Part shown: one piece after another, positions 2,511 through 21,823 of the stretch
How the letters are laid out: every line of letters begins with the position of its first letter
Position numbering within the stretch: the first letter of the stretch is position 1
Virus record (IMG/VR): IMGVR_UViG_3300028361_000137
Location: 1-21,823 of that record
Direction: 5' to 3' (one strand)
DNA from: a virus
DNA: 21,823 nt
Position numbers and translations under genes: made by a program
Notes under the pieces: generated by a model
Seen by the model: only the letters and a program-made list of their open reading frames with translations
What the model was told of the DNA's origin: nothing
Database searches by the model: none

Positions 2511-3835
2511 ATCGTGCCAGCCCATGAATTGTCAGTGGCATCCATCAACTCTGTCAAAGCCCAAACAGCCGCATCAAGACGATCTGGAGAGCCTTCGCCC
2601 ACATATCCTGTGAGGGTCATTTGCGTCATCTGTCCCTCCAATTTCTCAAGCCCTTGTGAGTGGCTGACTCTGCCCTGTTCATAAAGTGCTGCAATCGGCT
2701 CAGCCCGAACAGCCTTGCCCTTTGATGCAGTCACCAACTTCACATTGGCATATTTGTCTGCAGTGCGGATCACACTCTCAACCATAGCACCACCGTAATT
2801 CCGCTCAGCCACGATAAGTGCTGCGCCATGCTCCTTGTAGCGCTCGACCGCGCGCCTGCCCCATCCGGACGGCGAAAGGTTGCACGTCGCATCCTCAAGA
2901 ATTGCGAACCGTCCATCAACCAACTTGGCTGCGACGATGATGCCGATTTCATCCGCGCCACTTTCTGGGTCTCCATCAGCGCCACTCGGATCAACTGCAA
3001 CAACAATCCGCTGCACATCGGCAAAGGCTTCGTGCTGTAGCATAGCGTCGGTCCAAAGTGCACCCGGCACATCCTCTAGCAGCTCGGCATCTATCTCTTG
3101 CCGTCCCAATCGGGTGCCTTGGTATCTCTCTTTAATCGACTCAAGGAATGGCAAGGCAAGGTTCGCAGCATTGTCATATGTGCTGCCTCGGGTCAGAACG
3201 CTGCGAGGGTCTTTCATTAAAGCACGCACCAGAGGCACCGGCTTCGGCGTTGTCGTGACGATGGCTCGTGGATTATCGCCTAGGCGGAGCCCAAACATGG
3301 CCATGTCCCAAGTGGATTGTGCATTCTTCCATGCTGCCAATTCGTCTGCCCACATCGCGTCTGCCTGCGGACCTCGGAGGCGTTCTGGCTCCTCAGCCGA
3401 GAACAGCGTTGCAACAGCGCCGTTAGACCACGAAACGCGGCGCTTAGAGGGCTCATATGTCGGCCTGCCTAGGGCTGCCCCCAGAATGGTCTTGTCCCTG
3501 CTCCAGCACACAGATAAAAGGCCACTATCGCCCTCTACCATAACATCGCGTGCATCGCCTGCAGTTGGAGCGACCATCGTTATGCGACCGCAACCAGCCT
3601 TGACCTGCTCACGAACCCACTCAGCACCTGCTCGGGTTTTACCGGCACCGCGCCCAGCGACATACATCCATTGCCTCCAATCGCCTTCCGGAGCAAGCTG
3701 AGAGGGGCGTGCCCACCAGCCGCCCCAAGTCCAGTTTAGCTCAGCCATTGCCTCATCGCTAAGCTTCGCCAGCTCCTTCTTCTGGAAGGCTTCGGGCTGC
3801 GAGGCCAGCCATGCGGCTGGCGAAAGCTCTGGCAT
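2507..3835 (-). CDS. terL: Terminase large subunit
   Basis: The ATPase-nuclease motor that packages phage DNA. Residues 61-67 are the Walker A motif GRGAGKT, preceded by WMYVA. The Walker B motif with catalytic Glu is MWADE at about 161-165, and TTTPKP near 194-199 is the coupling motif. The C-terminal RNase H-like nuclease begins at VAVDPSG (Asp about 282) and closes with [14 protein letters not shown] near 417-430. At 442 residues it is a typical length. The start lies inside the small-subunit gene (77-base overlap), with GAGG about 12 bases upstream. A later Met30 start would fall just after the small-subunit stop but lacks proper ribosome-site spacing. Identification is secure. Confidence 0.95.
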
Positions 3836-4419: not shown

Positions 4420-4901
4420 CCGATAAGAAAAGGAGAAATTTTGAAACTCATCGGAAAACCTTCCAGAAACACATTTACATATCCGCCAGACTCAGAAATG
4501 ACCTCACCCTTAAAGCCCTTGAATGGGCCTGAGAGAGCAGTGACAGAGTCTCCCTTCAGGAACTTAGTCCGGGTGTTGCCGTCTTGAGCTCCTGCGAGGC
4601 AGAACTCATCAAGCTCTTCTCCAGAGACTTCACCGACCTTGCCGAAAGACAGCATCCGAGAAACAGACGGCAAGTCTACCCCAGCAACACTCCCCTCTCC
4701 AAGAGGCCAAGAATCAGTGCGACAGAAGAACACGCCGCCGATTAGAGGCTTCTTCAGAATTTCAACGCGGTTCTGCCGAGGCACTCTCCTGCGAAAATGA
4801 AACCAAGGACAAGAAACATCTTTCCCCTCAGCTGCCAAGGCCCTGACAAGATCCATCGCCTTCGACGGCTCACAGTAGCACACATACCATTTATCGCTCA
4901 T
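4404..4901 (-). CDS. NusG/RfaH-like transcription antitermination protein
   Basis: A 165-residue NusG paralogue. The NGN domain covers about residues 4-100: KWYVCYCEPSKAMDLVRALA opens it as in NusG (WYVvyt...), and KKPLIGGVFF matches the rPLfPGYvFv strand. The KOW domain follows at about 115-140 (FLKGDSVTALSGPFKGFKGE), with the classic GDxVxxxxGPFkGxxG signature. NusG-family proteins bind the RNA polymerase clamp and reduce pausing or termination; RfaH-type paralogues need a specific DNA signal. I start at the ATG 4899-4901, because AAGGA is 8 bases ahead of it but only two or three bases ahead of the ATG at 4905-4907. The position just before the packaging genes suggests control of late transcription, which is inference. 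Confidence 0.85.
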   Translation of the reverse strand: MSDKWYVCYCEPSKAMDLVRALAAEGKDVSCPWFHFRRRVPRQNRVEILKKPLIGGVFFCRTDSWPLGEGSVAGVDLPSVSRMLSFGKVGEVSGEELDEFCLAGAQDGNTRTKFLKGDSVTALSGPFKGFKGEVISESGGYVNVFLEGFPMSFKISPFLIGKTQA

Positions 4902-4920
4902 TTCCATCTTCCTTCACCAA

Positions 4921-5394
4921 AAGGTTCCAAAAAGGTTCCAAGTTCGCTTTTTTCGCTATAATCCAAAACTCTGCCGACAGTTTATAATATACTCCTTTCT
5001 TTCTTCTCTAGACCAACGAAGAAGAGGTAAAGAAAAAAGGAACCTAGGAAAACACCAGGGGAGTTTTAGATCGAGTGTTTTGCTGGAACTTGGAACCTTG
5101 TAAGCCGTTGATTTCTAATACCACCCAAATTTCAACACTTTTCCAACTCTCCCTTTTTTGCCCATTTTGCCGACGCCCAAAAAACATTCCCGATAAAGGG
5201 TTTTGCGAATATTTCGTAAACACACCCCCAAACGAAAGATTATTCTCTAAATGAAACCTTTCTATAGGCCTGAGGTTCCACAAAGACACCATAATTCCGT
5301 TCGGAGAGCGCCTAAAGTCGAAAAATTATTCAATGAAATTTAAGGAAAGTAAATCATTTCTTTTATTTTCAACCCCAAAAGTTCCAAGTTCCAA
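4921..5394. repeat. Dispersed GGTTCCAAGTTC repeats (iteron- or operator-like)
   Basis: AAGGTTCCAAGTTC occurs at 4932-4945 on the plus strand and, identical over 14 bases, on the minus strand at 5086-5099. A near copy, AAAGTTCCAAGTTCCA, is at 5378-5393. Shorter GGTTCC-type units lie at 4921-4930, 5039-5044 (minus) and 5274-5279. I noticed no further copies elsewhere in the window. Such clusters can be binding sites for an initiator or a regulator. Confidence 0.55.
5044..5292 (-). CDS. Uncertain small ORF in AT-rich region
   Basis: An 82-codon frame (MVSLWNLRPIERF...) is open here with an ATG start, but its ribosome site (GGA three bases before the ATG) is poor. It resembles no family I know. 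It overlaps two repeat units, one of which encodes GSKF near its end. Base composition differs from the neighbouring genes. It is listed because the gap is otherwise unexplained; it may be chance. Confidence 0.22.
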   Translation of the reverse strand: MVSLWNLRPIERFHLENNLSFGGVFTKYSQNPLSGMFFGRRQNGQKRESWKSVEIWVVLEINGLQGSKFQQNTRSKTPLVFS

Positions 5395-8187: not shown

Positions 8188-8393
8188 TGCTTTTCCTTCA
8201 TTGCTTCTTGGCAAGGCTTGCAGCACCATTCGCCATTTATTCTTTTCCAACCGTACAGCCTCGCACTCACAAGTGCGTCTGAAATGCCAAAAGCACCACG
8301 AGAGGTTTCTTCACAGGCGTTTCTTCCGCCTGGCCCGACTCCTGCGACAAAGAAGTTGCACCTAGCCTCGCACCAAATTCCCTTGCTGCTCAT
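8184..8393 (-). CDS. Small Cys-rich (zinc-binding-like) protein
   Basis: A 69-residue protein with paired cysteines: CEARC at residues 8-12, one Cys near 27, and CCKPC at 57-61. This suggests a small zinc-binding fold. Its ATG overlaps the polymerase stop as ATGA, and its stop overlaps the primase start as ATGA. It is therefore embedded in the replication operon and is probably translated by coupling. The function is unknown; a polymerase or primase accessory role is only suggested by position. Confidence 0.7.
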   Translation of the reverse strand: MSSKGIWCEARCNFFVAGVGPGGRNACEETSRGAFGISDALVSARLYGWKRINGEWCCKPCQEAMKEKQ

Positions 8394-11620: not shown

Positions 11621-12147
11621 AGCTCTTCCCTTTCTCGCAATTCAATGAAGCAGCGCGTCAGCGCCGCAACATCGACCCGTGCCCGGTGAGCGCCGGTGAA
11701 TGGTTCCCCGAACAGGAATTCATGCAGCGCTGAAAGATTCAGCCGATGGCCTTTCAAGTGTTCTGTGCCCTCGACGGTGCAGATCAGATTGGCCGGCCAG
11801 ATAAGCTCCGTCTTTGCACGCTTCATCTCGAAATTGACCATCGCCCTGTCATAGCTCATGTTGTGGGCGACGACTTCGTCAGCACTCTCAATCTGGCCCC
11901 TTACAGATTCTGAGAAGTGGCTGAATGGCGGCTGGCCTTTGACCTGCTCGGGCTTGATGCCAGTTATTCGGGTGATCTCCTCCGAGACTGGGAAGCCGGG
12001 GTCGCAGAAGAATTCAAGCTCTTCGACGACCTCTGTGCCTTCGACGATCTGGCCAAAGTATTCAATTATGCTTGGCTGTTGCGAGAGTGGTTTGACGCTG
12101 TTCTGGATCAATCCAGAAGTTTCGGTATCCAGAATTAATGTACGCAT
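11617..12147 (-). CDS. DnaQ-like 3'-5' exonuclease
   Basis: A 176-residue DEDD exonuclease. Exo I is ILDTETSGL (Asp7, Glu9), Exo II is VAHNMSYDRAMV (Asp100), and Exo III is GAHRARVDVAAL (His154, Asp159), which makes it the DEDDh type. It corresponds to the epsilon proofreading subunit and probably acts with the adjacent alpha-like polymerase, whose PHP domain lacks metal ligands. The ATG has AAAGG 8 bases ahead and lies inside the last 13 bases of the HNH gene. Assignment is secure; physical binding to the polymerase is inferred. Confidence 0.9.
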   Translation of the reverse strand: MRTLILDTETSGLIQNSVKPLSQQPSIIEYFGQIVEGTEVVEELEFFCDPGFPVSEEITRITGIKPEQVKGQPPFSHFSESVRGQIESADEVVAHNMSYDRAMVNFEMKRAKTELIWPANLICTVEGTEHLKGHRLNLSALHEFLFGEPFTGAHRARVDVAALTRCFIELREREEL

Positions 12148-12668
12148 TTTGAATGCCTTTCTTTGTGGCTTTCTGACATTTTCTTCTTGGATTCTTCAGA
12201 ATGCTTCAGCCCTGTTCTTGGGTGTTCTTCTTTTGGAAGAGCAAGCATCCGTTCCCGATTTGCCTTTGCCACCCTCCCCCTTCCTTCTTTTGAGACCTCT
12301 GGAAATCCAATCCTTTTCTGCACTATCGATCTGTTCTTTCTCCACTCCAAATTTCTTTCAGCATTGTCTTGGGCATTCTGCTTTGCAGTCCCCAAATAAA
12401 GGTGGCTTGGATTAATGCACCAGCCATTGTCGCAGTGGTGACACACAATACCTTCTTTTAAGTTAGCAGGACCTCTTGGGATCGGAGCAACATTCAGGTG
12501 ATAGCTCAGCCGGTGGGCTGCCCATTTCTCTCCTTCAAATACCACCCCACACACATCTTTGGACTCAGAGGGGAGGGGATAATCCTTCCTTGGCTTTCTT
12601 GATCTCGTCAATGGCACCCTGTAGCAGCAGCCACCAACCCAAACGATCGGATTCGGAAATTTAATCAT
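12135..12668 (-). CDS. HNH homing endonuclease with NUMOD3 motif
   Basis: The 177-residue protein has the HNH core GIVCHHCDNGWCINPSHLYL, with residues Cys76-His77-His78 and Asn86-Pro-Ser-His89. It is followed by a NUMOD3-type DNA-binding repeat, HPRTGLKHSEESKKKMSESH, at 149-168. This is the usual architecture of free-standing phage homing endonucleases, which cut at a specific site and spread their own gene. It lies in the replication operon between the NMAD1-like and exonuclease genes, overlapping the first by one base and the second by 13. Its Lys/Glu-rich C-terminus looks less like the neighbouring genes, which agrees with later insertion. No intron is evident in the flanking genes. Confidence 0.88.
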   Translation of the reverse strand: MIKFPNPIVWVGGCCYRVPLTRSRKPRKDYPLPSESKDVCGVVFEGEKWAAHRLSYHLNVAPIPRGPANLKEGIVCHHCDNGWCINPSHLYLGTAKQNAQDNAERNLEWRKNRSIVQKRIGFPEVSKEGRGRVAKANRERMLALPKEEHPRTGLKHSEESKKKMSESHKERHSKCVH

Positions 12669-18273: not shown

Positions 18274-18439
18274 GGGTCGTGTTCCTTTTCACTCAGGTTG
18301 TTAGGCCACCGGAGTCGTGGCTCCTTCTCTATGACTGCAAACCGTGCCCGGAGAAAGGGTTTTCGGCCTTTGTTTTTGTGCTTCTTCATGCCGTTCAGCT
18401 AAGCCCTTGTTTTTCGGTGATTCTTTTTTCACCGTTTCT

Positions 18440-18489
18440 TAAAATAAACCTTTTCTTTTGCGCAGCAATGGCGCATAAAGATTGTACGG
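18440..18489 (+). promoter_or_regulatory. 50-base promoter-like element, copy 1
   Basis: TAAAATAAACCTTTTCTTTT, a 7- to 9-base variable spacer, then ATGGCGCATAAAG-ATTGTACGG. The same layout recurs without gaps at 20072 and 20591. It lies about 270 bases upstream of the first plus-strand gene. A weak sigma70 reading is TTTTCT, 17 bases, CATAAA. A phage-specific promoter or operator is an equal possibility. Confidence 0.55.
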
Positions 18490-18678
18490 AAGCGAGGACG
18501 CGCCCCCTGCCCCTCCCGCGAACCCCGCAGCAGACGCCCGAAAGGGAAAGCGCGAACGTCCGGTGCCAAGCCCCAGACCCTAGCCGTTGAGACCGCCAAG
18601 TGCGGCCCAGACACGGAAGGGAGGAGCGAAGGCGGTTTCCGGCGACAGAGGGAGAGAAAAGCCTCTGCAAAAAAGCAA

Positions 18679-18735
18679 GACGAAACAGGCCGCGCTGGCC
18701 TGTCGCTGCGGATGGGACCGCAGACCTGAAGAGAA
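18679..18735 (+). ncRNA. Hammerhead ribozyme-like element (degenerate stem II)
   Basis: GAAA (18682-18685) is followed by stem III CAGGCC/GGCCTG (18686-18691 with 18697-18702) and UC (18703-18704). Stem I follows: CTGCGG (18706-18711) with CCGCAG (18718-18723), plus G705-C725 around a bulged A. The core is CTGAAGA (18726-18732), which fits the CUGANGA consensus. Stem II is only one firm pair (C681-G733), unless AAGC (18673-18676) pairs with GCTT (18741-18744) across an internal loop. Predicted cleavage is after C18704. It sits just upstream of the first gene's AGGAG. Confidence 0.5.
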
Positions 18736-18757
18736 CCCAAGCTTAGGAGAAGAGAAA

Positions 18758-19121: not shown

Positions 19122-19286
19122 ATGACCGACCAGTACACCGCCCTTAGCAACATGATCTTCAACTTTCAAAAAGAAGTCATGCGCCTTGACGTTGCCAACA
19201 TGGACCCTGAGGTCCGCGCCATGATGGATGTGGTCGAGGCTCAGCTTGACGCCCTTCGCACGGACAAACTGTTTCAATTGCGCTGA
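19122..19286 (+). CDS. Hypothetical protein, 54 residues
   Basis: A small acidic, helical protein (MTDQYTALSNMIFNFQKEVM...) with an ATG at 19122-19124 and AGGAG 8 bases upstream. It is Met-rich and has no membrane segment or Cys. It is too short to place in a family by eye. Its stop codon is one base before the first clear hammerhead ribozyme, so its transcript would end at the ribozyme after cleavage. Confidence 0.65.
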   Translation: MTDQYTALSNMIFNFQKEVMRLDVANMDPEVRAMMDVVEAQLDALRTDKLFQLR

Positions 19287-19287
19287 A

Positions 19288-19340
19288 GTCGAAACGCCCA
19301 ACCGGGCGTCTGGCGGATTGCCTCCCGCCACTGATGAGAC
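19288..19340 (+). ncRNA. Type II hammerhead ribozyme
   Basis: In order: stem II 5' strand GTC (19288-19290) and core GAAA (19291-19294). Stem III is CGCCC/GGGCG (19295-19299 with 19304-19308, loop AACC). UC is 19309-19310, with cleavage expected after C19310. Stem I is TGGCGG/CCGCCA (19311-19316 with 19325-19330). Core CTGATGA is 19331-19337 and stem II 3' strand GAC 19338-19340. Every conserved core nucleotide of the hammerhead is present. The order is that of the circularly permuted type II form, open at stem II. Stem II is only three pairs. It fills the gap between two genes and ends 10 bases before AGGAG. Confidence 0.85.
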
Positions 19341-19362
19341 AGGCACCCATAGGAGAAATAAA

Positions 19363-19932
19363 ATGACCAACGAACAAGCACTCATCACCATGGTCTCTTC
19401 GACCATCGTCGAATTCCACAACGCATACGCCGATCAGCCGGTAAAGAAATTCTCTGACAAAGAGACCGCGATCCGCCGCACATGCGCCGTTCTGGCTGAG
19501 GCTGGGATGGCCTTCGATGAGAGTTGCCAGCTGCGGAAGGTTGAGGCGACCCCCAAACTCAACTTCCACGACGACGCACAGTTCGAAGCAGATTCTGCCC
19601 ACATGCACCAAGAGGCTGAGCCGGTCATCGAGAATGGCCTTGAGATGGATCCTTCAGAAGCGGGGGCATTCGAGACTCCGCTTCCTGCGACTGAACCAAA
19701 GCAACGAGCCAAGTCTCAGCACCAGCCGCGCACCGACAAGGATGTCAAGATTGCGGTCGTCGGCGGAAAGGACGCAGCCAACCCTTATCGTGAGGGCTCA
19801 GCCAGCCACAAGGCATTCGCACTGATCCAGGGCCAGCCAGGCATCACTCGTGCCGAGTTCGAAGCAGCGGGTGGCCGGGTGCGCACCCTGACCCATGGCC
19901 TGAAGATTGGCCAGCTGCGGACGGTGCGGTGA
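19363..19932 (+). CDS. Hypothetical protein, 189 residues (possible winged-helix end)
   Basis: ATG at 19363-19365 has AGGAG 7 bases upstream. The N-terminal KKFSDKETAIRRTCAVLAE and the C-terminal SHKAFALIQGQPGITRAEFE plus RVRTLTHGLKIGQL vaguely resemble DUF3489-type small DNA-binding proteins, in which a helix-turn-helix follows a flexible linker. The middle (residues about 70-130) is acidic, Pro/Gln rich and probably disordered. The 5' part of its mRNA leader is the 3' cleavage product of the upstream hammerhead ribozyme. The family link is weak. Confidence 0.65.
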   Translation: MTNEQALITMVSSTIVEFHNAYADQPVKKFSDKETAIRRTCAVLAEAGMAFDESCQLRKVEATPKLNFHDDAQFEADSAHMHQEAEPVIENGLEMDPSEAGAFETPLPATEPKQRAKSQHQPRTDKDVKIAVVGGKDAANPYREGSASHKAFALIQGQPGITRAEFEAAGGRVRTLTHGLKIGQLRTVR

Positions 19933-20033: not shown

Positions 20034-20071
20034 CCACCAAACACACATTGCAAAAATAATTTGGGCTTTGC

Positions 20072-20121
20072 TAAAATAAACCTTTTCTTTTGCCGTCAGA
20101 TGGCGCATAAAGGTTGTACGG
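20072..20121 (+). promoter_or_regulatory. 50-base promoter-like element, copy 2
   Basis: It has the same AT tract, CTTTTCTTTT and ATGGCGCATAAAG blocks as copy 1, with no gaps. It lies about 40 bases upstream of the ATG at 20160. With copy 3 the similarity extends a further 20 bases to CCACCAAACC. Confidence 0.55.
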
Positions 20122-20547: not shown

Positions 20548-20590
20548 AATTGTTGAATTTCAGCACAGTGCAAGAAAAGTTGTGATCTCG

Positions 20591-20640
20591 TAAAATAAAG
20601 CTTTTCTTTTTAGCTTGGATGGCGCATAAAGATTGTATGG
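20591..20640 (+). promoter_or_regulatory. 50-base promoter-like element, copy 3
   Basis: The third ungapped copy, with CTTTTCTTTT and ATGGCGCATAAAG-ATTGTATGG; it differs mainly in the 7- to 9-base spacer. It precedes the 54-residue gene at 20679 and is followed by the shared CCACCAAACC and AGGAG leader. Confidence 0.55.
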
Positions 20641-20869: not shown

Positions 20870-21073
20870 ATGAGACACCAAATGATCACCGCCGACCAGC
20901 GCATCGAAGCTGCAGTTCGCGGCCTCTCAGCTTACTTTGAGCTGGAGAGCCAGACGCGGGCATTTATGAAATTCCGGATCAGGCTGGAGGGGGAGCCAGG
21001 ACCGACCTGCGTCAAGGTTCACAAAAGCCACCCAGCTGCCCCTTTTCTTGAAGCGATGGCAAGCGCAGACTAA
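20870..21073 (+). CDS. Hypothetical protein, 67 residues
   Basis: ATG at 20870-20872 is preceded by AAAGGAG, the best ribosome site in the cluster. An in-frame TTG at 20840 overlaps the previous stop but is less likely. The protein (MRHQMITADQRIEAAVRGLS...) has a helical N-terminus and a short beta-like end. The function is unknown. Its TAA is directly followed by the second clear hammerhead ribozyme. Confidence 0.65.
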   Translation: MRHQMITADQRIEAAVRGLSAYFELESQTRAFMKFRIRLEGEPGPTCVKVHKSHPAAPFLEAMASAD

Positions 21074-21130
21074 GTCGAAACGGGCAGCAATGCCCGTCCG
21101 CCGGAACTGCTCAACCGGTGCTGATGAGAC
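21074..21130 (+). ncRNA. Type II hammerhead ribozyme (second clear copy)
   Basis: In order: stem II GTC (21074-21076) and GAAA (21077-21080). Stem III is CGGGCA/TGCCCG closed by a GCAA tetraloop (21081-21086 with 21091-21096). UC is 21097-21098, with cleavage expected after C21098. Stem I is CGCCGG/CCGGTG (21099-21104 with 21115-21120, one G-U pair). Core CTGATGA is 21121-21127 and GAC 21128-21130. GCGC at 21063-21066 could extend stem II with GCGC at 21134-21137 across an internal loop. All core nucleotides match; stems I and III differ from the first copy by compensating changes. Confidence 0.85.
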
Positions 21131-21154
21131 AGAGCGCAAACCAGGAGAATACAA

Positions 21155-21823
21155 ATGGCCCATCAAGTTGAATCAATCGCATACGCAAACGAAGTTCCTT
21201 GGCATGGTATCGGCAACCGCGTCGAAGAGAACTCGACCGTCGAAGAAATGCAGGTCGCTGCTGGCCTCAACTGGGAGCTTGAGCGCAAGCCGCTGCTGGC
21301 CGACCTCGGCGGCGGCGAAATGCTGCCCATCGAAGGCAAGAGTGCTTGGGTGCGCAATACTGACCGTCGCGTTATGGCAGTCAGCGGCCCCTCGTGGCGT
21401 CCACTTCAACCGGGCAAAACCCTCGAGTTTATGCGCGACTATGTTCAGGCTGGCGCTGCGACGCTCGAGACTGCTGGCTCTCTGCGCGACGGCAAGGTCG
21501 TCTGGGGATTGGCGCGCCTCAAGCATGACTTCGAGGTCCGCCCCGGCGACCGTGTAAATGGCTACCTGCTGATCACGTCGCCCAATGAAGTCGGGACGGC
21601 GATCAGCGTGCGCACGACGACAGTCCGCGTCGTTTGTGCCAATACGATGGCGCTGGCAAATCGGGCTGGGCATGGCCAGACACAATACAAGCAGAACCAC
21701 CTCAGAGAATTCGACGTGACTGCTGCGAAAGAAGCAGTCGGCAATGCCCACGAGCAATTGGCTCAGGCCGAGAAGAATGCGCGCACCCTCGACAAGCTCA
21801 AGCTGAGCATTGCCGATTCAATC
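21155..21823 (+). CDS. DUF932 family protein (3' end beyond window)
   Basis: ATG at 21155-21157 has AGGAG about 8 bases upstream, and the frame is open to the window end (223 codons). EVPWHGIGNRVEENSTVEEM opens the protein as in the DUF932/TIGR03299 phage and plasmid family. RPLQPGKTLEF, AGSLRDGKVVWGLARL, YLLITSPNEVGTAISVRTTT and VRVVCANTMALAN follow in the expected order. These proteins are common on phages and plasmids; their biochemical role is not settled. It is translated from the 3' product of the second hammerhead ribozyme. Confidence 0.88.
   Translation, partial: MAHQVESIAYANEVPWHGIGNRVEENSTVEEMQVAAGLNWELERKPLLADLGGGEMLPIEGKSAWVRNTDRRVMAVSGPSWRPLQPGKTLEFMRDYVQAGAATLETAGSLRDGKVVWGLARLKHDFEVRPGDRVNGYLLITSPNEVGTAISVRTTTVRVVCANTMALANRAGHGQTQYKQNHLREFDVTAAKEAVGNAHEQLAQAEKNARTLDKLKLSIADSI

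Follow-up and report, generated by a model that had tools for sequence, protein, structure and literature searches.

A type II hammerhead ribozyme beside a stop codon in a phage operon, and a placement rule that suggests 3'-end formation within continuing transcripts

The window analysed here, a 21,823-nucleotide stretch of viral DNA (IMG/VR record IMGVR_UViG_3300028361_000137), ends in a rightward operon that holds three putative type II hammerhead ribozymes (Table 1). A DNA similarity search with the whole window in named phages gave no near match. A promoter-like repeat, AAAATAAACCTTTTCTTTT...ATGGCGCATAAAGATTGTA, occurs in three copies that are 82-84% identical (18435-18489, 20067-20121 and 20586-20640), each upstream of a block of small genes, and a similar block also precedes the operon in L004, L005 and L006. 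Between the first copy and the first ribozyme lies a G+C-rich leader of ~200 nt (18480-18700), conserved with L004 in its first part (82%) and not in its middle. Elsewhere in the window, an HNH endonuclease gene (12138-12668, minus strand) adjoins the gene for a DNA polymerase exonuclease subunit, overlaps it by a few bases, and possibly encodes a homing endonuclease.

Table 1. Genes, ribozymes and signals of the rightward operon, in coordinates of the window
Feature	Position	Strand	Basis
Third type II hammerhead, 5' leader of the rightward operon	18678-18741	+	RF02276, 29.3 bits, E 0.024 (5.7e-6 in single-family search)
First gene of the operon, 103 aa	18758-19069	+	ORF; family searches, no family match
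54-aa gene upstream of the target	19122-19286	+	ORF; family searches, no significant family match
UGA stop of the 54-aa gene, 1 nt before stem II	19284-19286	+	Sequence and ORF
Target type II hammerhead	19287-19348	+	RF02276, 36.8 bits, E 2.7e-4; structural descriptor; fold z -2.3
Predicted cleavage point, C19310/U19311	19310-19311	+	H17 position in the core
Predicted pseudoknot, loop I UGCCU (19319-19323) with tail AGGCA (19341-19345)	19319-19345	+	Position and pairing logic of the published type II consensus (PMC3088659)
AGGAG Shine-Dalgarno of the 189-aa gene (ATG 19363)	19351-19355	+	Sequence
189-aa gene downstream of the target	19363-19932	+	Profile match, phrog_7790 (function unknown)
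67-aa gene upstream of the second ribozyme	20870-21073	+	ORF
Second type II hammerhead, before the DUF932 gene (ATG 21155)	21073-21138	+	RF02276, 39.1 bits, above gathering score 37
DUF932 gene (PF06067), downstream of the second ribozyme, running into the window end	21155-21823	+	Family match

A preliminary description, made from the letters and open reading frames, had placed the elements of a type II hammerhead core at 19288-19340 between genes of 54 and 189 residues; both genes are present (19122-19286 and 19363-19932), and each core element can be read directly in the sequence. Stem II pairs G19288-U-C19290 with G19338-A-C19340 (3 bp), followed by GAAA (19291-19294) and by stem III, A19294-C19299 with G19304-U19309 (6 bp, loop AACC). 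C19310 occupies H17 (C17), the cleavage nucleotide by core position. Stem I, U19311-G19316 with C19325-A19330 (6 bp, 8-nt loop), leads into CUGAUGA (19331-19337), so that the catalytic core GAAA / UH / CUGANGA is complete and in type II order. Loops close stems I and III, and stem II, the shortest of the three helices, is open. The suspicion voiced earlier, that so short a stem II may need a tertiary contact, fits the predicted pseudoknot of five Watson-Crick pairs between loop I and the 3' tail. The published type II consensus has such a pseudoknot, commonly of at least four pairs, and stems II that go down to two pairs are reported as common (PMC3088659).

The preliminary description had named the Rfam covariance model as a check. 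In a cmscan of 4227 families, RF02276 (Hammerhead_II) aligns with the motif from end to end, but its score lies 0.2 bits under the gathering score of 37 and the motif is for that reason absent from a default Rfam run. A search with this family alone, over the window's own record, gives an E-value of 6.1e-8, and the folding z is -2.3. We add to the earlier account the loop I/tail pseudoknot, two further type II hammerheads and a 5' edge that adjoins a stop codon.

The second hammerhead starts on the UAA stop (21071-21073) of the 67-aa gene, with a predicted cut between 21098 and 21099 and a pseudoknot of GCUC (21109-21112) with GAGC (21132-21135). The third, in the operon leader, lies ~200 nt downstream of the promoter-like repeat, its 3' edge preceding the first gene's ATG by 22 nt. 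Stem II of this copy consists of one pair, and its core reads CUGAAGA; position 7 of the hammerhead core is the variable one. It pairs UGGG (18713-18716) with CCCA (18736-18739), and its cut is predicted between 18704 and 18705. The counterpart in L004 (2887-2949, 36.7 bits) has the CUGAUGA core and differs from the leader copy in stems I and III, where the changes are compensatory; the pseudoknot is the same. All three copies in the window are on the plus strand just upstream of a Shine-Dalgarno sequence and an ATG, and their pseudoknot sequences all differ.

Using the DUF932 protein as query, we collected 31 viral contigs, five of which carry RF02276 matches (3, 1, 2, 5 and 4 copies). The junction before the DUF932 gene holds a hammerhead in L004, L005, L006, L024 and L028; among these hammerheads the stems differ, stem II is GUC/GAC or GGC/GCC, and the pseudoknots are rewritten. 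At the same junction, L007, L008 and L009 (~4890-5000) carry consecutive plain hairpins with no hammerhead core. These hairpins show compensatory changes between L008 and L009, have no Rfam match, and are possibly another processing element or ribozyme. L009 also contains a long inverted repeat (8245-8381) with weak matches to microRNA precursors on both strands; we regard it as a palindrome and reject a microRNA.

Analysis of the sequence confirms 19287-19348 as a type II hammerhead, predicted to cleave, whose core is intact and which has three stems and a pseudoknot. The type II identity put forward earlier is supported by the core, stems, topology, covariance model, predicted pseudoknot and compensatory variation in related phages. 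That the motif is a non-cleaving look-alike, as its score below the Rfam cut-off might suggest, we regard as highly improbable given its complete core, its pseudoknot, the conservation in relatives and the two sister copies, one of them above threshold. The target resembles the type II hammerheads reported in 2011 (RF02276) in core, permutation, pseudoknot, short stem II, association with phage genes and occurrence as several copies that flank single genes; unlike that set, the host phage and the genes are new (PMC3088659). The closest arrangement is the triple hammerhead around ardA in an Agrobacterium tumefaciens prophage, in which three ribozymes likewise flank individual genes in one transcript; here the genes are others, and one copy precedes the first gene (PMC3088659).

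A strict type II pattern matched at least 120 stretches in viral contigs, and 93 when one genome per species was searched in 84,980 bacterial and archaeal species. The motif patterns fix part of stem II and the core; the pattern behind the 161 listed type II motifs requires neither the pseudoknot nor stems I and III. A pseudoknot of at least four Watson-Crick pairs nonetheless forms in 58% of these 161 motifs, versus 16% with tails swapped, through 62 distinct pairings that almost always involve the first bases of the tail. Stems I and III both form in 82% of the listed pattern matches; the shuffled values are 3% and 9% for the stems separately. A structural descriptor gave 285 unique type II matches in forward sequence versus none in the reversed sequences of 468 loci, a control that bounds false positives and is no measure of enrichment because the loci were partly chosen by pattern. 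This control and the pseudoknot led us to reject chance resemblance for the motifs.

We asked where the motifs sit relative to genes, which were taken as open reading frames and not as annotations, with stops from frames of at least 30, 60 or 100 codons, because a simple gene caller gave spurious opposite-strand genes at many junctions. In 71% of the 285 listed type II motifs, the stop of a frame of at least 60 codons falls from -3 to +9 nt of the motif's 5' edge, compared with 1-3% at shifted positions. When motifs were clustered so that upstream genes were unrelated between clusters, with one randomly drawn member counted per cluster, a stop abuts the motif in 190 of 220 clusters among the matches listed; the remaining 30 (~14%) lack abutment. 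The G of a UAG stop is itself the first base of stem II in 51 of 211 among the matches listed. In 80% of the listed motifs the next 60 nt include a Shine-Dalgarno start, typically 20-30 nt past the 3' edge. Since stem III belongs to the ribozyme anyway, the placement rule in type II alone is indistinguishable from plain compactness, and the functional argument therefore rests on type III hammerheads and twister-P1.

The classes differ in where they cut. The type II cut falls between the ribozyme's two hairpins, leaving stem III at the end of the upstream product and stem I at the start of the downstream one. In type I, the upstream product also ends in stem III, and the 5' end of the downstream product is unstructured. 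Type III cuts near its own 5' end and leaves a bare upstream 3' end, and the twister-P1 cut is likewise 5'-proximal. A need for a 3' hairpin would predict that type III has a separate one. In phage contigs both type III and twister-P1 are, like the target, intercistronic, co-directional and mostly placed before a Shine-Dalgarno start, but unlike the target they cleave near the ribozyme 5' end and have a separate hairpin between stop and ribozyme. Among the type III matches listed, a stop abuts the motif in 1 of 55 clusters, and a spacer of at least 15 nt separates the two in 48 of 55; 44 of these 48 spacers (44 of the 55 clusters) fold to -8 kcal/mol or better, with a mean of -15.6 versus -7.0 for shuffled spacers.

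Twister-P1 served as an out-of-sample prediction. A family search in 391 genomes returned seven matches, four of which, to judge by their sequence, seem to lie on the wrong strand, so we sampled the class by a DNA pattern in viral contigs and inferred the edges of P1 by pairing. The same search for hatchet (RF02678) found no match in the 391 genomes and is uninformative. Among the twister-P1 matches listed, 55 of 71 clusters have a spacer of at least 15 nt, and 44 of the 55 spacers (44 of the 71 clusters) contain a hairpin of -8 kcal/mol or better. Among 576 ordinary non-coding gaps that follow stops, 21% contain such a hairpin, which makes the extra hairpin 3-4 times commoner before these ribozymes (Fisher 2e-18 for type III, 4e-12 for twister-P1). 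The hairpins lie between stop and ribozyme and end flush with the ribozyme; no U-tract follows them in any of 73 type III and 82 twister-P1 cases tested, and we rejected intrinsic terminators on this ground. Among the matches listed, ~20% of clusters in type III and ~38% in twister lack the arrangement.

The order of stop, hairpin and cut is common to hammerhead types I, II and III and twister-P1. Several readings of this order can be weighed. The junctions might be merely compact, the ribozymes being mobile or neutral cassettes with no selected RNA processing and the hairpins ordinary terminators. This would fit the intercistronic gaps, which the motif nearly fills (median 84 nt in the matches listed), and the clusters known around varied phage genes. 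We consider it very unlikely: the stems, the core and the pseudoknot persist through compensatory changes, the extra hairpins are enriched, flush with the ribozyme and free of U-tracts, and, where the 3' side is not compact (no Shine-Dalgarno start within 40 nt), 49 of 73 listed type II motifs still abut a stop, so that compactness alone is insufficient. Alternatively, the extra hairpins may shield an open ribozyme stem against ribosomes or against misfolding with the coding region, in line with where they lie in type III and twister, precisely in the interval from stop to ribozyme. Types I and II, however, are also open-stemmed at the 5' edge, yet stops abut or overlap that stem, and we judge insulation in place of 3'-end protection to be quite unlikely.

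A further possibility is that the ribozymes serve mainly the downstream gene, by giving it a short, structured leader with a 5'-OH end, so that the ribosome-binding site is freed or stabilised. The short distance from type II motifs to the Shine-Dalgarno start and the leader copy at 18678, which has a downstream gene only, speak for it, as does a 5' hairpin on the downstream product in 90% of type II and 87% of type III among the matches listed. Type I products carry such a hairpin in only 17% and occupy the same kind of junction, which led us to reject 5'-end protection as the shared function; moreover, type III and twister have gained an extra 3' hairpin and no compensating extra 5' hairpin. 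A main role for the downstream gene is therefore unlikely in our assessment. As the 5' hairpin is not general, the element shared by the classes is the upstream 3' end, and the comparison suggests 3'-end formation of the upstream message within a continuing transcript as the best-supported function.

We propose that the target probably is functional and cuts its transcript, and that each intercistronic cut forms the hairpin-ended 3' end of the upstream message. The polycistronic rightward transcript would be cut at C19310/U19311, separating the 54-residue gene from the 189-residue gene, and the sister ribozymes would cut at 18704/18705 and 21098/21099. The mature upstream 3' end would then consist of the stop codon, a few nucleotides and a stable hairpin (stem III at the target) with a one-nucleotide overhang and a 2',3'-cyclic phosphate, and should resist 3' exonucleases; hairpins block bacterial enzymes of this kind. 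As no U-tract terminator is used, the polymerase would continue to the next gene. The downstream message would carry its 5'-OH on stem I, which the pseudoknot ties to the leader immediately ahead of the Shine-Dalgarno sequence, and 5'-OH ends evade 5'-end-dependent decay. Catalysis in the cell, protection from exonucleases and an effect on gene expression are what we infer from this arrangement. The leader copy has no upstream gene, so 3'-end formation does not explain it; its upstream product would be a leader RNA, and cleavage would release the ~200-nt leader as a separate RNA.

For the four classes together, we lean slightly towards a single job, termination-free 3'-end formation, with the hairpin built in (types I and II) or added (type III and twister). 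If true, this would explain the interchangeability of the ribozymes and their clustering in phage operons, and the common order makes the role of these clusters simply testable. The target ribozyme, the phage clusters, cleavage and the idea of mRNA processing are of a kind already known: Perreault et al. reported in 2011 that type II hammerheads cluster around prophage genes, with cleavage both in vitro and in E. coli, and proposed that such clusters process long phage transcripts (PMC3088659). The role of prokaryotic hammerheads was called open in a 2017 review (PMC6155905), and a 2023 paper describes the reason for ribozyme gene associations as still unknown (PMC10085705). Our search of the 2011 text found no mention of stop-codon placement (PMC3088659). 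We found no report of stop abutment or the extra hairpin in the literature searched, and claim no priority because most subscription papers lay outside its scope. The contribution of our comparison is the placement rule across ribozyme classes.

Further type II motifs came to light along the way. One, unannotated and with a pseudoknot of 6 bp, is in Anoxybacillus phage A403 (L050 ~3001-3061; MG969427 30297-30357); like the target it precedes a gene of unknown function, but it belongs to a phage of a Gram-positive host and lies 139 nt after the annotated upstream stop, and so is leader-like. L076 (8402-11317) holds seven type II hammerheads within 3 kb, and every one of them starts -1 to +3 nt from a stop. 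One 16-kb contig of a Clostridiales genome (L211, G034:C41) combines a type II hammerhead with a match to twister-P1.
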